Below the pieces are notes generated by a model that saw only the letters and a program-made list of their open reading frames with translations, was not told where the DNA came from and did not search any database. The position numbers were made by a program, and so were the translations under genes. Below are positions 27,381 through 63,276 of a DNA stretch of 64,000 nucleotides, piece by piece. Source of the stretch: Phascolarctobacterium sp. (GTDB taxonomy: Bacteria > Bacillota > Negativicutes > Acidaminococcales > Acidaminococcaceae); contig JAUNWI010000005.1 of assembly GCA_030540395.1 (NCBI GenBank), positions 62,001 through 126,000 on the forward strand. Reading direction: 5' to 3'. The first letter of the stretch is position 1, and the number at the start of each line of letters is the position of its first letter.

Positions 27381-27408
27381 TTGACAAAACCGGAAAAGGG
27401 AGTAAAAT
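27381..27408 (+). promoter_or_regulatory. Promoter of the Cys-rich leader and ABC operon
   Basis: TTGACA (27381-27386), a 16-bp spacer and TAAAAT (27403-27408). A small hairpin CCTAT / ATAGG (27427-27443) lies in the untranslated leader before the leader ORF. Confidence 0.75.
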
Positions 27409-27476
27409 AATACACAACACAGAAAACCTATAGAAATAATAGGCTTAATAAGTGTTAAGGAAGAGAGGAAATTAAG

Positions 27477-27599
27477 ATGAAAAAGTATGACGTAGTAAAG
27501 AACGTGATGTGCAGCATGTGTATGGGCAGCGCTATGTGTATGCCCTCTTGTTGTGTTGCGCAAAAACGAATGTGTCTTTACTATGGTTCTTGTAGATAG
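27477..27599 (+). CDS. 40-residue Cys/Met-rich leader peptide
   Basis: Starts MKKYDVVKNVMCSMCMGSAM and contains seven Cys (residues 12, 15, 21, 25, 26, 33, 39) and seven Met. GAGAGGAAA precedes the ATG. A transcription terminator begins 17 bases after the stop, and an amino-acid ABC transporter operon follows, the arrangement of a translation-sensing attenuator for cysteine and/or methionine. Within the ORF, bases 27510-27517 (TGCAGCAT, covering Cys12) are exactly complementary to 27612-27619 (ATGCTGCA), which overlap the 5' arm of the terminator. A direct role of the peptide, for example in metal binding, cannot be excluded. Confidence 0.7.
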   Translation: MKKYDVVKNVMCSMCMGSAMCMPSCCVAQKRMCLYYGSCR

Positions 27600-27616
27600 T
27601 TAACTGTAATTATGCT

Positions 27617-27641
27617 GCAGGCCATGGCGCCTGCTTTTTTT
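27617..27641 (+). terminator. Attenuator-type terminator before the ABC operon
   Basis: GCAGGC / GCCTGC stem with a 6-nt loop, followed by seven T. It lies between the Cys-rich leader ORF and the ABC ATPase gene. Confidence 0.85.
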
Positions 27642-27692
27642 ATTGACTATAAACCTAGTAAATATCTAGGTAAAGTAAGTGGAGTGAAGCTT

Positions 27693-28451
27693 ATGTTGAA
27701 GGTAACAGGCATTCGCAAGGCCTTTAAAAATAACGAGGTCTTGAAGGGTGTGGATTTAGAGGTCAAAAAGGGGGATGTGGTGAGCATCCTTGGTCCTAGT
27801 GGCAGTGGCAAAACAACCCTGCTACGCTGCATCAATTTCCTTGAGCATGCCGATGCAGGTCAGCTAGATTTTGATGAGCAGCATCTTGATTATGCTAAGG
27901 TTAAGGGCAAGGAAATCAAGCAAATTCGCCAAAAAACAGCCTTTGTTTTCCAAAACTACAATTTGTTCAATAACAAAAATGCTTTGGAAAATGTGACAGA
28001 GGGCTTGATTTATGGCAGGGGCATGGATAAGGAAAAAGCCATCGCCATTGCCAAAAAGGCCTTGGACAAGGTTGGCCTTGCCGATAGATATGACTATTAT
28101 CCCAGTCAGCTTAGCGGCGGCCAGCAGCAACGTGTGGGCATTGCCAGAGCCATTGCAGTGGAGCCGGAAATAATCCTGATGGATGAGCCCACAAGTGCGC
28201 TGGACCCCGAGCTGATTGGCGAGGTGCTGGCGGTGATTAAACAGCTGGCAGACGAAGGAAAAACCATGGTGATTGTGACGCATGAGATGCAGTTTGCTAA
28301 GGAAATTTCCACTAATGTGATTTTTATGGCAGATGGCAACATCGTGGAGCAGGGGCCGCCCAGCAAGATTTTTGTGCAGCCAGAGCACGAGCGCACACGC
28401 AAATTCTTAAAGCGCGTGCTGCCACCGCCGGAAATTGAATATGTCATCTAA
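27693..28451 (+). CDS. Polar amino acid ABC transporter, ATP-binding protein
   Basis: Energises import of an amino acid across the inner membrane. The 252-residue GlnQ-type ATPase has Walker [10 protein letters not shown] (residues 34-42), a Q-loop ([12 protein letters not shown]), the signature [14 protein letters not shown], Walker [13 protein letters not shown] and the H-loop VTHEM. ATG 27693 is used; an in-frame ATG at 27612 lies inside the terminator and leader and is not credible. The order ATPase, binding lipoprotein, two permeases gives a complete transporter. The Cys/Met leader upstream suggests a sulfur amino acid such as cystine or methionine, but the sequence alone does not show the substrate. 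Confidence 0.93.
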
Positions 28452-28492: not shown

Positions 28493-29347
28493 ATGATGTT
28501 GAAAAAATCTTTACTTAATAAATTAGCAGTTGTTTCCCTGAGCATTTTGGCAGTGGCCGCTTTGAGCGCCGGTTGCGGTAGCGATAGCAAAAAGGCAGCA
28601 GCTCCGGCTGGTAAAAAGGTAGTAGTGAAAACCGTCATCAGCGGCACTGAAGCTCCCTTGAGCTGGGTGGATGAAAAGGGCGAAAAGCATGGCTATGAAT
28701 ATGACGTGCTGCTGGAGATTAATAAAAAGCTGAAAAACTATCAGCTGGATATCCAAGCCGTTCCTCCTGAAACCCAGGATGTAATGATGGAATCAGGCGA
28801 CGCCAAGGTTGCAACTGGTGGCTATTATAAAAACGCTAAGCGTGAGCAAAACTTTATCCTGCCTTCCAATCCCATTGGTGCCAGCAATTTGGTGGTTTAT
28901 GTGACCAAGGGTAACGAAACTAAATACAAGAATTTGGAGGACGTTGTTAAGGCTAATCTGAAGATTGTGCCGCTGACTCCTAATGGTGGCGCCTTCCGTA
29001 TCGTTACCGATTGGAACAAAAAGCATGGCAATTTGCTGAAGGAAATTCCGGTACAGGCCGGTCGCAGCGCTGCTGACGGTGTAAATTCCTTAAAGGAAGG
29101 TCAATATGACGCCTTTATTATTCCCGATATTTTGGGTGTTTTGGATTTGGCAGAAAAACAGGGCGTGCAGCTGGTTGCTTTGCAGGAGCCTGTAAAGGTG
29201 AATGGCACCTACGTTTTGGTTAACAAAAAAGAGGAAAAGCTGGCCGGAGAAATCAACGATGCACTTAAGGCATTGCGTGATGACGGCACTCTGAGCAAGC
29301 TGAATGTAAAGTGGTTTAAGGCAGACCTGCTGAAGATTTTGAAATGA
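28493..29347 (+). CDS. Amino acid ABC transporter substrate-binding lipoprotein
   Basis: Captures the substrate outside the inner membrane. It has a lipoprotein signal with basic MMLKKSLLNK, a hydrophobic core and lipobox LSAGC (Cys28). The mature part is a family 3 binding-protein fold of about 255 residues (TEAPLSWVDEKGEKHGYEYDV near the start, ATGGYYKNAKREQNF in the middle). Two adjacent ATG codons (28493, 28496) could start it. It is less similar to cystine-specific FliY/TcyA by eye than to a general polar amino acid binder, so the substrate is open. Confidence 0.9.
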   Translation: MMLKKSLLNKLAVVSLSILAVAALSAGCGSDSKKAAAPAGKKVVVKTVISGTEAPLSWVDEKGEKHGYEYDVLLEINKKLKNYQLDIQAVPPETQDVMMESGDAKVATGGYYKNAKREQNFILPSNPIGASNLVVYVTKGNETKYKNLEDVVKANLKIVPLTPNGGAFRIVTDWNKKHGNLLKEIPVQAGRSAADGVNSLKEGQYDAFIIPDILGVLDLAEKQGVQLVALQEPVKVNGTYVLVNKKEEKLAGEINDALKALRDDGTLSKLNVKWFKADLLKILK

Positions 29348-29409
29348 AGTGATGGTGTGTTGCTTGTAAAAGCGGCACAGCAAAAAAATGATTAAGGGAT
29401 GTGTGGAAT

Positions 29410-30111
29410 ATGTTAACTTTTAGCTTTAGTTATTTTCTTGAGGTTTGGCCGAAGCTGCTAGAGGCTGTGCCCTATACCTTCTATTTTATCCTGATGAGCA
29501 CGCTGGTAAGCTTTGTCGCAGGTATTCTTGTAGCTATGGTTCGCATTCCCCGCATCCCCGTTCTTTTTGAGCTGACGGAGCTATGGATGAGTCTGATTAG
29601 GAGTATGCCCTTTGTGCTGCTACTCTTTTTAAGCTATTTCCTGTTGCCCTTCCTTTTGCAGGGCTTCGGCGTTGCAAGCAGTGACGTACCCAAGGAAATC
29701 TACGTTTATACAGCGATGTTTCTGCATTATGGGCCCATTGTGGCGGAGGTTATCCGCCCGGCCTACGAGGCCGTGCCCCATGGTCAGACTGAGGCAGCGT
29801 TGGTATTTGGTCTCAGTACTTGGCATAGAGTGACGCACATTAACCTGCCACAAGCATTACCGATTATGCTGCCGGGACTGGTGAACCAGTTTATCGAAAT
29901 CATCAAGGACACCTCCCTAATGTACATGATTGGTTTAATGGATTTGGTGGGGCGCGCCAATCTTTTAATTCACCTGCGCTTAGGGCAGGGACGCATCGAG
30001 TGCTATCTGGTGGTAGCTTTGATTTATTGGGCTCTGATTAGCGCCTCCGAGCTCTTGGCGGCCCATTTGGAGCGGCACAGCAATAGATTCTTAAGGAGGG
30101 AAGCAGCATGA
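29410..30111 (+). CDS. Amino acid ABC transporter permease 1
   Basis: One half of the membrane channel. The 233 residues have about five helices and the HisM/GlnP-type EAA loop (YEAVPHGQTEAALVFGLSTW and onward to LPQALPIMLPGL). ATG 29410 is preferred because AAGGGA (29394-29399) is 10 bases upstream; the in-frame GTG at 29401 is too close to it. It overlaps the second permease by 4 bases (ATGA), so equal expression is expected. Confidence 0.92.
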   Translation: MLTFSFSYFLEVWPKLLEAVPYTFYFILMSTLVSFVAGILVAMVRIPRIPVLFELTELWMSLIRSMPFVLLLFLSYFLLPFLLQGFGVASSDVPKEIYVYTAMFLHYGPIVAEVIRPAYEAVPHGQTEAALVFGLSTWHRVTHINLPQALPIMLPGLVNQFIEIIKDTSLMYMIGLMDLVGRANLLIHLRLGQGRIECYLVVALIYWALISASELLAAHLERHSNRFLRREAA

Positions 30112-30821
30112 CCTTTGAATTTGATACAGCTATCAAGGCCTTTGCCTTCATCCTTAAGCATCTTCCCTTAACCCTTTTTTTGCCGGCGGTGACACTCATC
30201 ATTGGCATTGTTTTTGGCTCCATTATTGCCATCGTGCGCTTGCGCAGCAATAAGCTTGTTAATGCGATATTGGCGATGGTGGTTTCCTTCTTCCGCTCGG
30301 TGCCGGCCATTCTGCAGGTTTTTATCATGTATTACAGCTTGCCCTATCTCATTGCGCCAATTTTGAGTGCGGTGACGGGCAGTGTAGTGAATCCCTTTGA
30401 TGTGAGTCCTTATTGGACGGCTTATATTTTCTTTATCATTTATCAAACAGCATACCAGTCCGAGAATATTCGTGGAGCGTTGCTCAGCGTAGACAGGGGA
30501 CAGATGGAGGCTTCTTTGGCAGCAGGGCTTTCGTACTATCAGGCCTATAAGCGTATTATCCTACCGCAGGCCTTTGCAGTGGCTATGCCTTCATTCTTCA
30601 CTTATTATCTGCATGGCATCAAGAGCTTGGCACTGCTGTTTACGATTAAGATAGTAGATATTTTTGCAGCAGCAGATATTTTTGCTGCTTTATATAGCAG
30701 ACGCACTGAGCCCTATGTGGCAGATGCCATTATATATTGGCTGCTGTGCGTAGTCTTAACCTTTGTTTTCAATAGCTGGGAGCGCAGCCTGAGTAAGGGC
30801 TTGCGCCACGCAGATCACTAA
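30108..30821 (+). CDS. Amino acid ABC transporter permease 2
   Basis: Second half of the channel, 237 residues with about five helices. It has its own EAA loop (SVDRGQMEASLAAGLSYYQAYKRIILPQA). The presence of two distinct permeases predicts a heterodimeric channel of the HisQM/GltJK type. AAGGAGG precedes its ATG within the first permease gene. Its stop shares bases with an in-frame ATG of the next gene, although a later ATG there has the better ribosome site. Confidence 0.92.
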   Translation: MTFEFDTAIKAFAFILKHLPLTLFLPAVTLIIGIVFGSIIAIVRLRSNKLVNAILAMVVSFFRSVPAILQVFIMYYSLPYLIAPILSAVTGSVVNPFDVSPYWTAYIFFIIYQTAYQSENIRGALLSVDRGQMEASLAAGLSYYQAYKRIILPQAFAVAMPSFFTYYLHGIKSLALLFTIKIVDIFAAADIFAALYSRRTEPYVADAIIYWLLCVVLTFVFNSWERSLSKGLRHADH

Positions 30822-30847
30822 TGAATTTTTTTAGGAGATGTATGATC

Positions 30848-31861
30848 ATGAATAAAATAGAACGATTAGAGGCGGCTATAGCTGGCAAAGAGGTGGACCG
30901 TGTTCCTTATTCCATTTGGCACCATCTTTCCGCGCTGGACCAGGATCCGGTGAGCCTCGCTGAGGAAACCGTTGCGTTGAGCAAGAAATACGATTACGAT
31001 TTTGTGAAGATGATGCCCTTTGGCCTTTATGGCGTGCAGGACTTGGGAGCAAAAATCAACATCTTTGCGCAACAGGGTAAGCCGCCTCTGGTGGCTCGTC
31101 CCGGAATTCAATCCATCAGCGACTATTTAGCGCTGCAGCCCATACCTGCCATTCAGGGTACCTATGGCAAGCAGCTGGAGTTTACCGAGCTTTTGCATAA
31201 GCAGCTGCCCAGCGGCACGCCCTATATCCAAACTATCTTTAGCCCGTTGACCACGCTGCATAAGCTGGCTGGCAACCGCGTGCTGGAGGACCTCAAAACT
31301 AATCCTGAGGCGGTAGAGCATGCGCTGGAGGTTATCACGGAAATCACCATTGACTTTGTGCAGGAAAATATCAAGCGGGGTGTGAGTGGCTTTTTCTTTG
31401 CTACGCAGGATGCTCGTAAGCCCCTCATCAGTGCCGAAAACTTTGCTAAATTTGGCATTAAATACGATTTGGCAGTGCTCAATAGCTATGTAAAAAAGAC
31501 CTGGTTCAATGTGGTGCATTTGCATGGCCTGGATGTGTATTTTGACGAGGTGCTGGCTAATTATCCTGTCAATGTTTTGAATTGGCATGACCGCAATACG
31601 CCGCCGACGCTGGCGGAAGCACGCCAAAAGACGAATAAGGCCTTTTTGGCTGGCATTCGTGCTGCGCAAAAAATTGTTAATGGAGTGGAGGAGCCGGATG
31701 ATATTTTTGAAAATGGTACTCCGGAGGAAATCAGCACCCATGTGAAGGAAGCGATCGCTCAGGTTGATGGCAAAGGTCTTATTATCGGGCCCGGCTGCGT
31801 AGTTAACCAATTCGTAACCGAAGAAAAACTGCGTGCAGTACAAAAGGCTTTAGTGCTGTAA
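30848..31861 (+). CDS. Uroporphyrinogen decarboxylase (URO-D) family protein, methyltransferase-like
   Basis: The 337-residue URO-D fold protein starts NKIERLEAAIAGKEVDRVPYS and has the later HLHGLD and GPGCVVN motifs. The latter resembles the zinc-ligand Cys region of MtaA/CmuA-type cobalamin methyltransferases; the usual His-X-Cys is HLH here. It is therefore unlikely to be the haem-pathway HemE and more likely acts on a methylated thiol or corrinoid partner. It is the last gene of the ABC operon, which hints at processing the imported compound. ATG 30848 lies 10 bases after AGGAG; ATG 30842 is an alternative. Confidence 0.75.
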   Translation: MNKIERLEAAIAGKEVDRVPYSIWHHLSALDQDPVSLAEETVALSKKYDYDFVKMMPFGLYGVQDLGAKINIFAQQGKPPLVARPGIQSISDYLALQPIPAIQGTYGKQLEFTELLHKQLPSGTPYIQTIFSPLTTLHKLAGNRVLEDLKTNPEAVEHALEVITEITIDFVQENIKRGVSGFFFATQDARKPLISAENFAKFGIKYDLAVLNSYVKKTWFNVVHLHGLDVYFDEVLANYPVNVLNWHDRNTPPTLAEARQKTNKAFLAGIRAAQKIVNGVEEPDDIFENGTPEEISTHVKEAIAQVDGKGLIIGPGCVVNQFVTEEKLRAVQKALVL

Positions 31862-63005: not shown

Positions 63006-63276
63006 CAACAACTGCAAATCGCCCCTGAAAGATGAAGAAGGGAAGAAGATATGGTGAAAGGTCACAGAGAGTCGCTGGCCGGTGTAAAGCGATACTGGAA
63101 GCTATATGCATACTGATCCTGGAGTTGCCTTCCTGATAGGTAGGGAAGGACGTGACTGTCACGTTATAGACGAAGGCCTTGTTGGAGGCTAAAGGGTTGC
63201 GCAAGCAACTGAATTAGGGTGGTACCGCGTGGAAATTTCCCCGCCCCTAGCATGAAGCTATGGGGCGGATTTTATT
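63006..63276 (+). promoter_or_regulatory. T-box leader of leuA (Leu specifier CTG)
   Basis: T-box AGGGTGGTACCGCG lies at 63216-63229, followed by the terminator CCGCCCC-TAGC / GCTA-GGGGCGG (63241-63268) and a T-rich end. Aligned with the two other T-boxes in the window, CTG at 63113-63115 is in the specifier place (CTG-ATCCTGGAG). It fits leucine control. If shifted by one codon, ATC (Ile) would be read instead. Confidence 0.88.

Follow-up and report, generated by a model that had tools for sequence, protein, structure and literature searches.

This locus, part of the 64,000-nt stretch of Phascolarctobacterium DNA analysed here (the window), raises the question of what controls an amino acid importer operon that is preceded by a short leader open reading frame rich in Cys and Met codons and by an intrinsic terminator. 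In Firmicutes, sulfur amino acid genes are usually controlled by T-box leaders, riboswitches or CymR. What we propose, with high confidence, is transcription attenuation of the trp/his kind, in which the translating ribosome senses cysteine, as the control of this operon for a cystine-type ABC importer. This kind of mechanism is already known, and the leader of the window would be a new case of it.

The leader ORF of 40 codons (27477-27599, forward strand; translation MKKYDVVKNVMCSMCMGSAMCMPSCCVAQKRMCLYYGSCR) contains seven Met and seven Cys codons, the latter starting at 27510, 27519, 27537, 27549, 27552, 27573 and 27591. A sigma-70-type promoter, TTGACA-16-TAAAAT (27381-27408, forward strand, 11/12 matches in a consensus scan), lies upstream, leaving about 60 nt of 5' UTR between the predicted start site and the ORF. 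The Shine-Dalgarno sequence GAGAGGA (27463-27469, forward strand) is located 7 nt 5' of the leader ATG, and the intrinsic terminator GCAGGCCATGGCGCCTGC-TTTTTTT (27617-27641, forward strand; stem 27617-27634, -10.0 kcal/mol, U7 tract) separates this translatable ORF from the first gene of the operon. At the local Cys frequency of 1.3% (44/3277 residues), at least seven Cys in 39 residues have a probability of about 8e-7; the Cys richness of the leader exceeds chance, and the over-represented codons are those of the amino acid that a cystine-type importer would supply. An earlier note on this DNA had described a Shine-Dalgarno-led, Cys/Met-rich ORF of 40 residues and a terminator before an amino acid ABC operon, which is borne out by translation, Shine-Dalgarno sequence, terminator and gene context; the GGGCA/TGCCC hairpin that it placed inside the ORF (27524-27545) is present.

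The operon, encoded on the forward strand, starts with a TcyN-like ABC ATPase (27693-28451; best NCBIfam match PRK11264 TcyN, 322.9 bits, cut-off 406), followed by a cystine/YtmK-like solute-binding lipoprotein (SBP; 28493-29347; NCBIfam PRK11260, 58.4 bits), whose nearest solved relative is YtmK of B. subtilis (PDB 2o1m, E 2.9e-21), and by two ABC permeases of the cystine type (29401-30111 and 30108-30821), both with a cystine permease as best NCBIfam match. It is closed by a URO-D family gene of the MtaA/CmuA-like methyltransferase family (30821-31861; PF01208, E 5.9e-27; NCBIfam MtaA/CmuA), with coordinates given from the first in-frame ATG; it may instead start later, at 30848. The best NCBIfam matches of ATPase, permeases and SBP are cystine parts, every score being below the equivalog cut-off, and the four-gene ABC operon looks like a cystine-type importer.

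Divergent from the Cys leader lies metA with its own T-box leader (27205-26935, reverse strand; 92.4 bits, just below the 93-bit cut-off), the specifier region of which, GAAGAUGG, we read as Met. With a Met-type T-box on metA and a Cys leader on the importer, the two divergent units appear to be governed by two different sulfur amino acids. Rfam scans found no T-box before the importer operon on the forward strand, only the one on the reverse strand before metA; a Cys T-box riboswitch was rejected as the sensor of the window, as the stem I specifier and the T-box antiterminator are absent before the operon. A further T-box leader above the Rfam cut-off is located at 63026-63251 (forward strand) of the window.

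The switch was computed at equilibrium: the ribosome was set to hold a given codon in its A site, and the RNA lying 3' of it was folded alone. An antiterminator hairpin of 20 bp is predicted at 27581-27627 (forward strand; arms 27581-27602 and 27607-27627), with -17.1 kcal/mol versus -10.0 kcal/mol for the terminator. Its 5' arm spans the end of the leader ORF, stop codon included (CTATGGTTCTTGTAGATAGTTA), and is largely kept in the related genome G003. The calculated terminator probability does not exceed 0.02 while the A site holds any of Cys1 to Cys5, and is 0.90 at Cys6 and 1.00 at Cys7 and at the stop codon. This pattern is stable over 30-42°C and for footprints between +10 and +16; only Cys6 lies on the boundary. 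In silico, a mutually exclusive antiterminator is placed under the control of ribosome position; since 28 out of 1000 dinucleotide shuffles of this segment produced stall states just as clean, the structure on its own is modest evidence. The earlier note had pointed to TGCAGCAT at the first Cys codon (27510-27517) as exactly complementary to 27612-27619. The complementarity stands, but the pairing is not populated (ensemble probability 0.000), and an antiterminator built on it was rejected; the likely pairing is 27581-27602 with 27607-27627.

According to the proposed mechanism, a plentiful supply of charged Cys-tRNA would allow the ribosome to pass the Cys codons, reach the stop codon and cover 27581-27602, upon which the terminator stem (27617-27634) would form and RNA polymerase would stop before the importer genes. 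When cysteine is short, the ribosome would stall at one of Cys codons 1-5 and leave 27581-27602 free to pair with 27607-27627, so that the 5' arm of the terminator would be sequestered and the operon transcribed. While sequence and computation show the leader ORF, its terminator, the alternative hairpin and the genes that follow, we infer that the leader is translated, that transcription ends prematurely and that both respond to cysteine. A point against the mechanism is that, unlike in a textbook attenuator, the untranslated leader RNA favours the antiterminator (terminator probability 0.24).

Peptide and DNA searches for homologues of the leader in the family delivered only the leader of G003 and a relic in the window's own genome (G000). 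The G003 leader, on contig C34, adjoins the same metA T-box, has kept its frame open and still contains seven Cys (neutral P 0.02). In this one pair 17 codons differ, 17 nonsynonymously and 0 synonymously, and the residue identity of 24/40 equals the neutral expectation (23.6), a pattern that gives no sign of purifying selection on the leader peptide. Because all differences are nonsynonymous and identity is neutral, yet seven Cys are kept, the leader fits a codon counter rather than a functional Cys peptide. As no terminator was detected within 130 nt of the G003 leader and the contig ends 187 nt past it, the attenuator of G003 may be decaying or unseen. The relic (L070, about 1440-1560; G000:C1:6429-6560) is a second copy of the promoter and of the leader start, in which the leader is truncated to MQKFKA and joined to what is left of a UroD gene and of a permease of the cystine type.

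For comparison, operons with a cystine-type SBP and UroD were gathered in the class and from one genome per species (84,980 species). A strict filter (Shine-Dalgarno sequence, at least 3 Cys, at least 8% Cys, terminator within 130 nt) on both strands of all collected loci delivered leaders of cystine-type operons and one unrelated match. Such leaders were obtained from Phascolarctobacterium (MRQYALAANNIMCKMQAQEMCCSCCAQFYM), Succiniclasticum and an unplaced Acidaminococcaceae MAG (MKKSAVLRRAESCSMRTLAAVMCMCCCPCALSMNMCRTRNACLCLLT), Youngiibacter (MKMDFQVSSKNCICCHSKASSMCCCICHGKISYEYKP), Anaerobium and two Enterococcus, and looser criteria add leaders in Treponema, Paenibacillus and a Clostridiaceae MAG (L185). 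None of these three additions matched the strict terminator, so the downstream step is not claimed there. By the same equilibrium method the leaders of Phascolarctobacterium, Succiniclasticum and Enterococcus gave no clear switch, and that of Youngiibacter a partial one only.

Among Shine-Dalgarno-preceded mini-ORFs of 61 non-redundant upstream regions, with all 20 amino acids asked alike, Cys is the most enriched residue (clusters in 13 regions versus 0.75 expected, among them regions from Phascolarctobacterium, Succiniclasticum, Enterococcus and Treponema), followed by Met (7 versus 0.38 expected) and Asn (10 versus 1.65 expected); three Cys in six residues were observed 9 times versus 0.07 expected. 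One of the 13 Cys cases, L187, is a false positive that lies inside a T-box. Mapping the Cys-leader label onto a tree of 71 SBPs takes a minimum of five or six changes. With 28-32% identity to the SBPs of the comparison operons, that of the window lies well apart from them, and the operons compared are therefore homologous, not strictly orthologous. The leaders before related operons have no common peptide sequence, and those tested matched no NCBIfam model. Conservation of the Cys codons in relatives, named by the earlier note as a check, is found for the mini-ORF and the number of Cys, which recur, but not for the peptide sequence and the exact positions. Judged by sequence, comparable Cys gauges seem to stand before operons of this kind in several further groups of bacteria. 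In otherwise unrelated leaders (window, L154, L158, L174, L193, L215) a Met often precedes a Cys codon (ATG-TGY).

The Treponema leader, MxxxFEKLVRENFRNGxMCxCC, was found one to four times per genome in 93 of the 245 genomes sampled from the family (loci L234-L267, match near 1500-1580 in most). The genes that follow it, with families checked on the first 70 residues, are UroD together with cystine ABC genes, an O-acetylhomoserine sulfhydrylase, a cysteine synthase and a cystathionine gamma-synthase/lyase-like gene. One inner Met and two or three Cys are kept. As FEKLVRENFRNG is nearly invariant in 29 unique Treponema leaders despite synonymous variation of its Leu and Arg codons, the peptide itself is under selection here, unlike that of the window leader; an arrest peptide and a cysteine regulon are possible. 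A short hairpin directly 3' of the leader stop codon, within the first 20 nt, was seen in L234, L236, L240, L245 and L253 (e.g. ACCGGAAAGTTCTTTCGGT, ACTGAAGGTCCTTCAGT, GCTGAAAGTCCTTTAGC) and appears to covary.

T-boxes precede homologous operons in Megasphaera, Acidaminococcus provencensis, Dialister and one Succiniclasticum. The specifier GGAA(G)UGC is present in those of L161, L182, L187, L189, L191, L196 and L200, and UGC was read by eye in L156 and L194, which brings the UGC T-boxes on related operons to nine altogether; they are an independent pointer to cysteine as the signal for such operons. The Succiniclasticum T-box case, L156, is nested with the Cys-leader genomes L157-L159 on the SBP tree. 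Switches between T-box and leader peptide have been documented for hisS (PMC2965389). The Cys T-box has the same control sense, with uncharged tRNA-Cys permitting read-through, and is found on the same operon type in other genomes, but there the RNA reads the tRNA, whereas in the window leader the translating ribosome would do so. In L223, a Lactobacillales MAG, the same operon type carries a T-box at -203 to -98 of the first gene with a specifier that looks like AUG, not UGC.

The earlier note had suggested attenuation for sulfur amino acids, of which the reading of cysteine is upheld by the comparative evidence, the exchange with Cys T-boxes and the computed switching, while the Met signal is disfavoured by T-boxes reading UGC. 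A leader that senses methionine, or both sulfur amino acids, would agree with Met codons as numerous as the Cys codons, with Met as second most enriched residue in related mini-ORFs, with the adjoining divergent metA and its Met-type T-box and with the apparent AUG specifier of L223. We nevertheless regard it as improbable in view of the nine UGC T-boxes, the first rank of Cys in the same mini-ORFs, the single inner Met versus two or three Cys kept in Treponema and the cystine type of the importer; cysteine, not methionine, is likely the signal.

Control at the DNA level also has to be weighed, as the window contains a perfect 5-7-5 inverted repeat just 3' of the -10 element, CCTATAGAAATAATAGG (CCTAT-N7-ATAGG, 27427-27443), which is a possible operator, and a second one, CCTAGTAAATATCTAGG (CCTAG-N7-CTAGG), at 27654-27670. 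The site C[AC]TAn-N7-nTA[GT]G is found in 24/61 related upstream regions, as opposed to a mean of 1.2 and a maximum of 4 in shuffles, and the repeats are likely the putative operator of a regulator. A repressor or activator at these repeats is compatible with attenuation; that it controls the operon with ORF and terminator being incidental is very unlikely, since terminator, antiterminator and Cys count would then all be coincidences. Least probable of the explanations weighed is that the ORF encodes a Cys-rich small protein with a function of its own, perhaps as a metal or redox peptide, with the terminator as a fixed brake. The ORF is indeed Cys-rich and well-initiated and its peptide is recognisable in G003 (58%), but residue identity is at the neutral level with nonsynonymous differences throughout, no peptide sequence is common to the leaders of related operons, those tested giving no NCBIfam match, and the 3' codons of the leader make the antiterminator arm.

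As a proposed attenuator, the window leader resembles the trp/his-type His leader before hisS/hisZ in Firmicutes (PMC2965389) in its Shine-Dalgarno-led short ORF with regulatory codons, in its terminator and competing antiterminator, in the match between amino acid and operon and in the replacement of a T-box on the same genes; it differs in reading cysteine, not histidine, in serving an importer, not a tRNA synthetase, and in having its stop codon inside the antiterminator arm. Cys-codon attenuators with polycysteine leaderless sORFs are described for mycobacteria (Canestrari 2020, as cited in PMC9094748 and PMC13236596), and Actinobacterial cys leaders without terminators have been predicted (PMC1262725). 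Both share with the window a mini-ORF that stands ahead of sulfur genes and carries its Cys codons in runs; the mycobacterial attenuators are leaderless and those of the comparative study (PMC1262725) have no terminators, whereas the window leader is not a leaderless mini-ORF but has a Shine-Dalgarno sequence, its 5' UTR and an intrinsic terminator. The uORFC-8-2 motif, predicted with a terminator before cysS in Rhodobacterales (PMC8632094), likewise combines uORF Cys codons with a subsequent intrinsic terminator, but it belongs to another target gene and lineage, the window leader preceding an importer operon with relatives in Acidaminococcaceae, and has two tandem Cys codons at positions 14-15 as opposed to seven across 28 codons. 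In the literature searched, coverage of which is incomplete, no description of Cys leaders in Firmicutes, Treponema or Spirochaetes was found.

We lean slightly towards the broader view that attenuation by Cys-codon leaders is a widespread and repeatedly evolved control of cystine/cysteine supply in Firmicutes and Spirochaetes that is exchanged with Cys T-boxes, with a Treponema regulon whose leader is conserved as a peptide (FEKLVRENFRNGxMCxCC) and whose nascent peptide may join in ribosome arrest. If so, the list of sulfur amino acid controls in Firmicutes given above misses one that replaces the Cys T-box, genomes of the Succiniclasticum type, with the same operon under either sensor, would be a natural experiment on the replacement of a tRNA-sensing device, and the cystine importers of gut anaerobes would gain a directly testable cysteine response.

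A gene of the URO-D/MtaA family accompanies cystine-type importers across Firmicutes and Spirochaetes (window, L154, L174, L226, L232); as a guess, its product might demethylate an imported methylated thiol.
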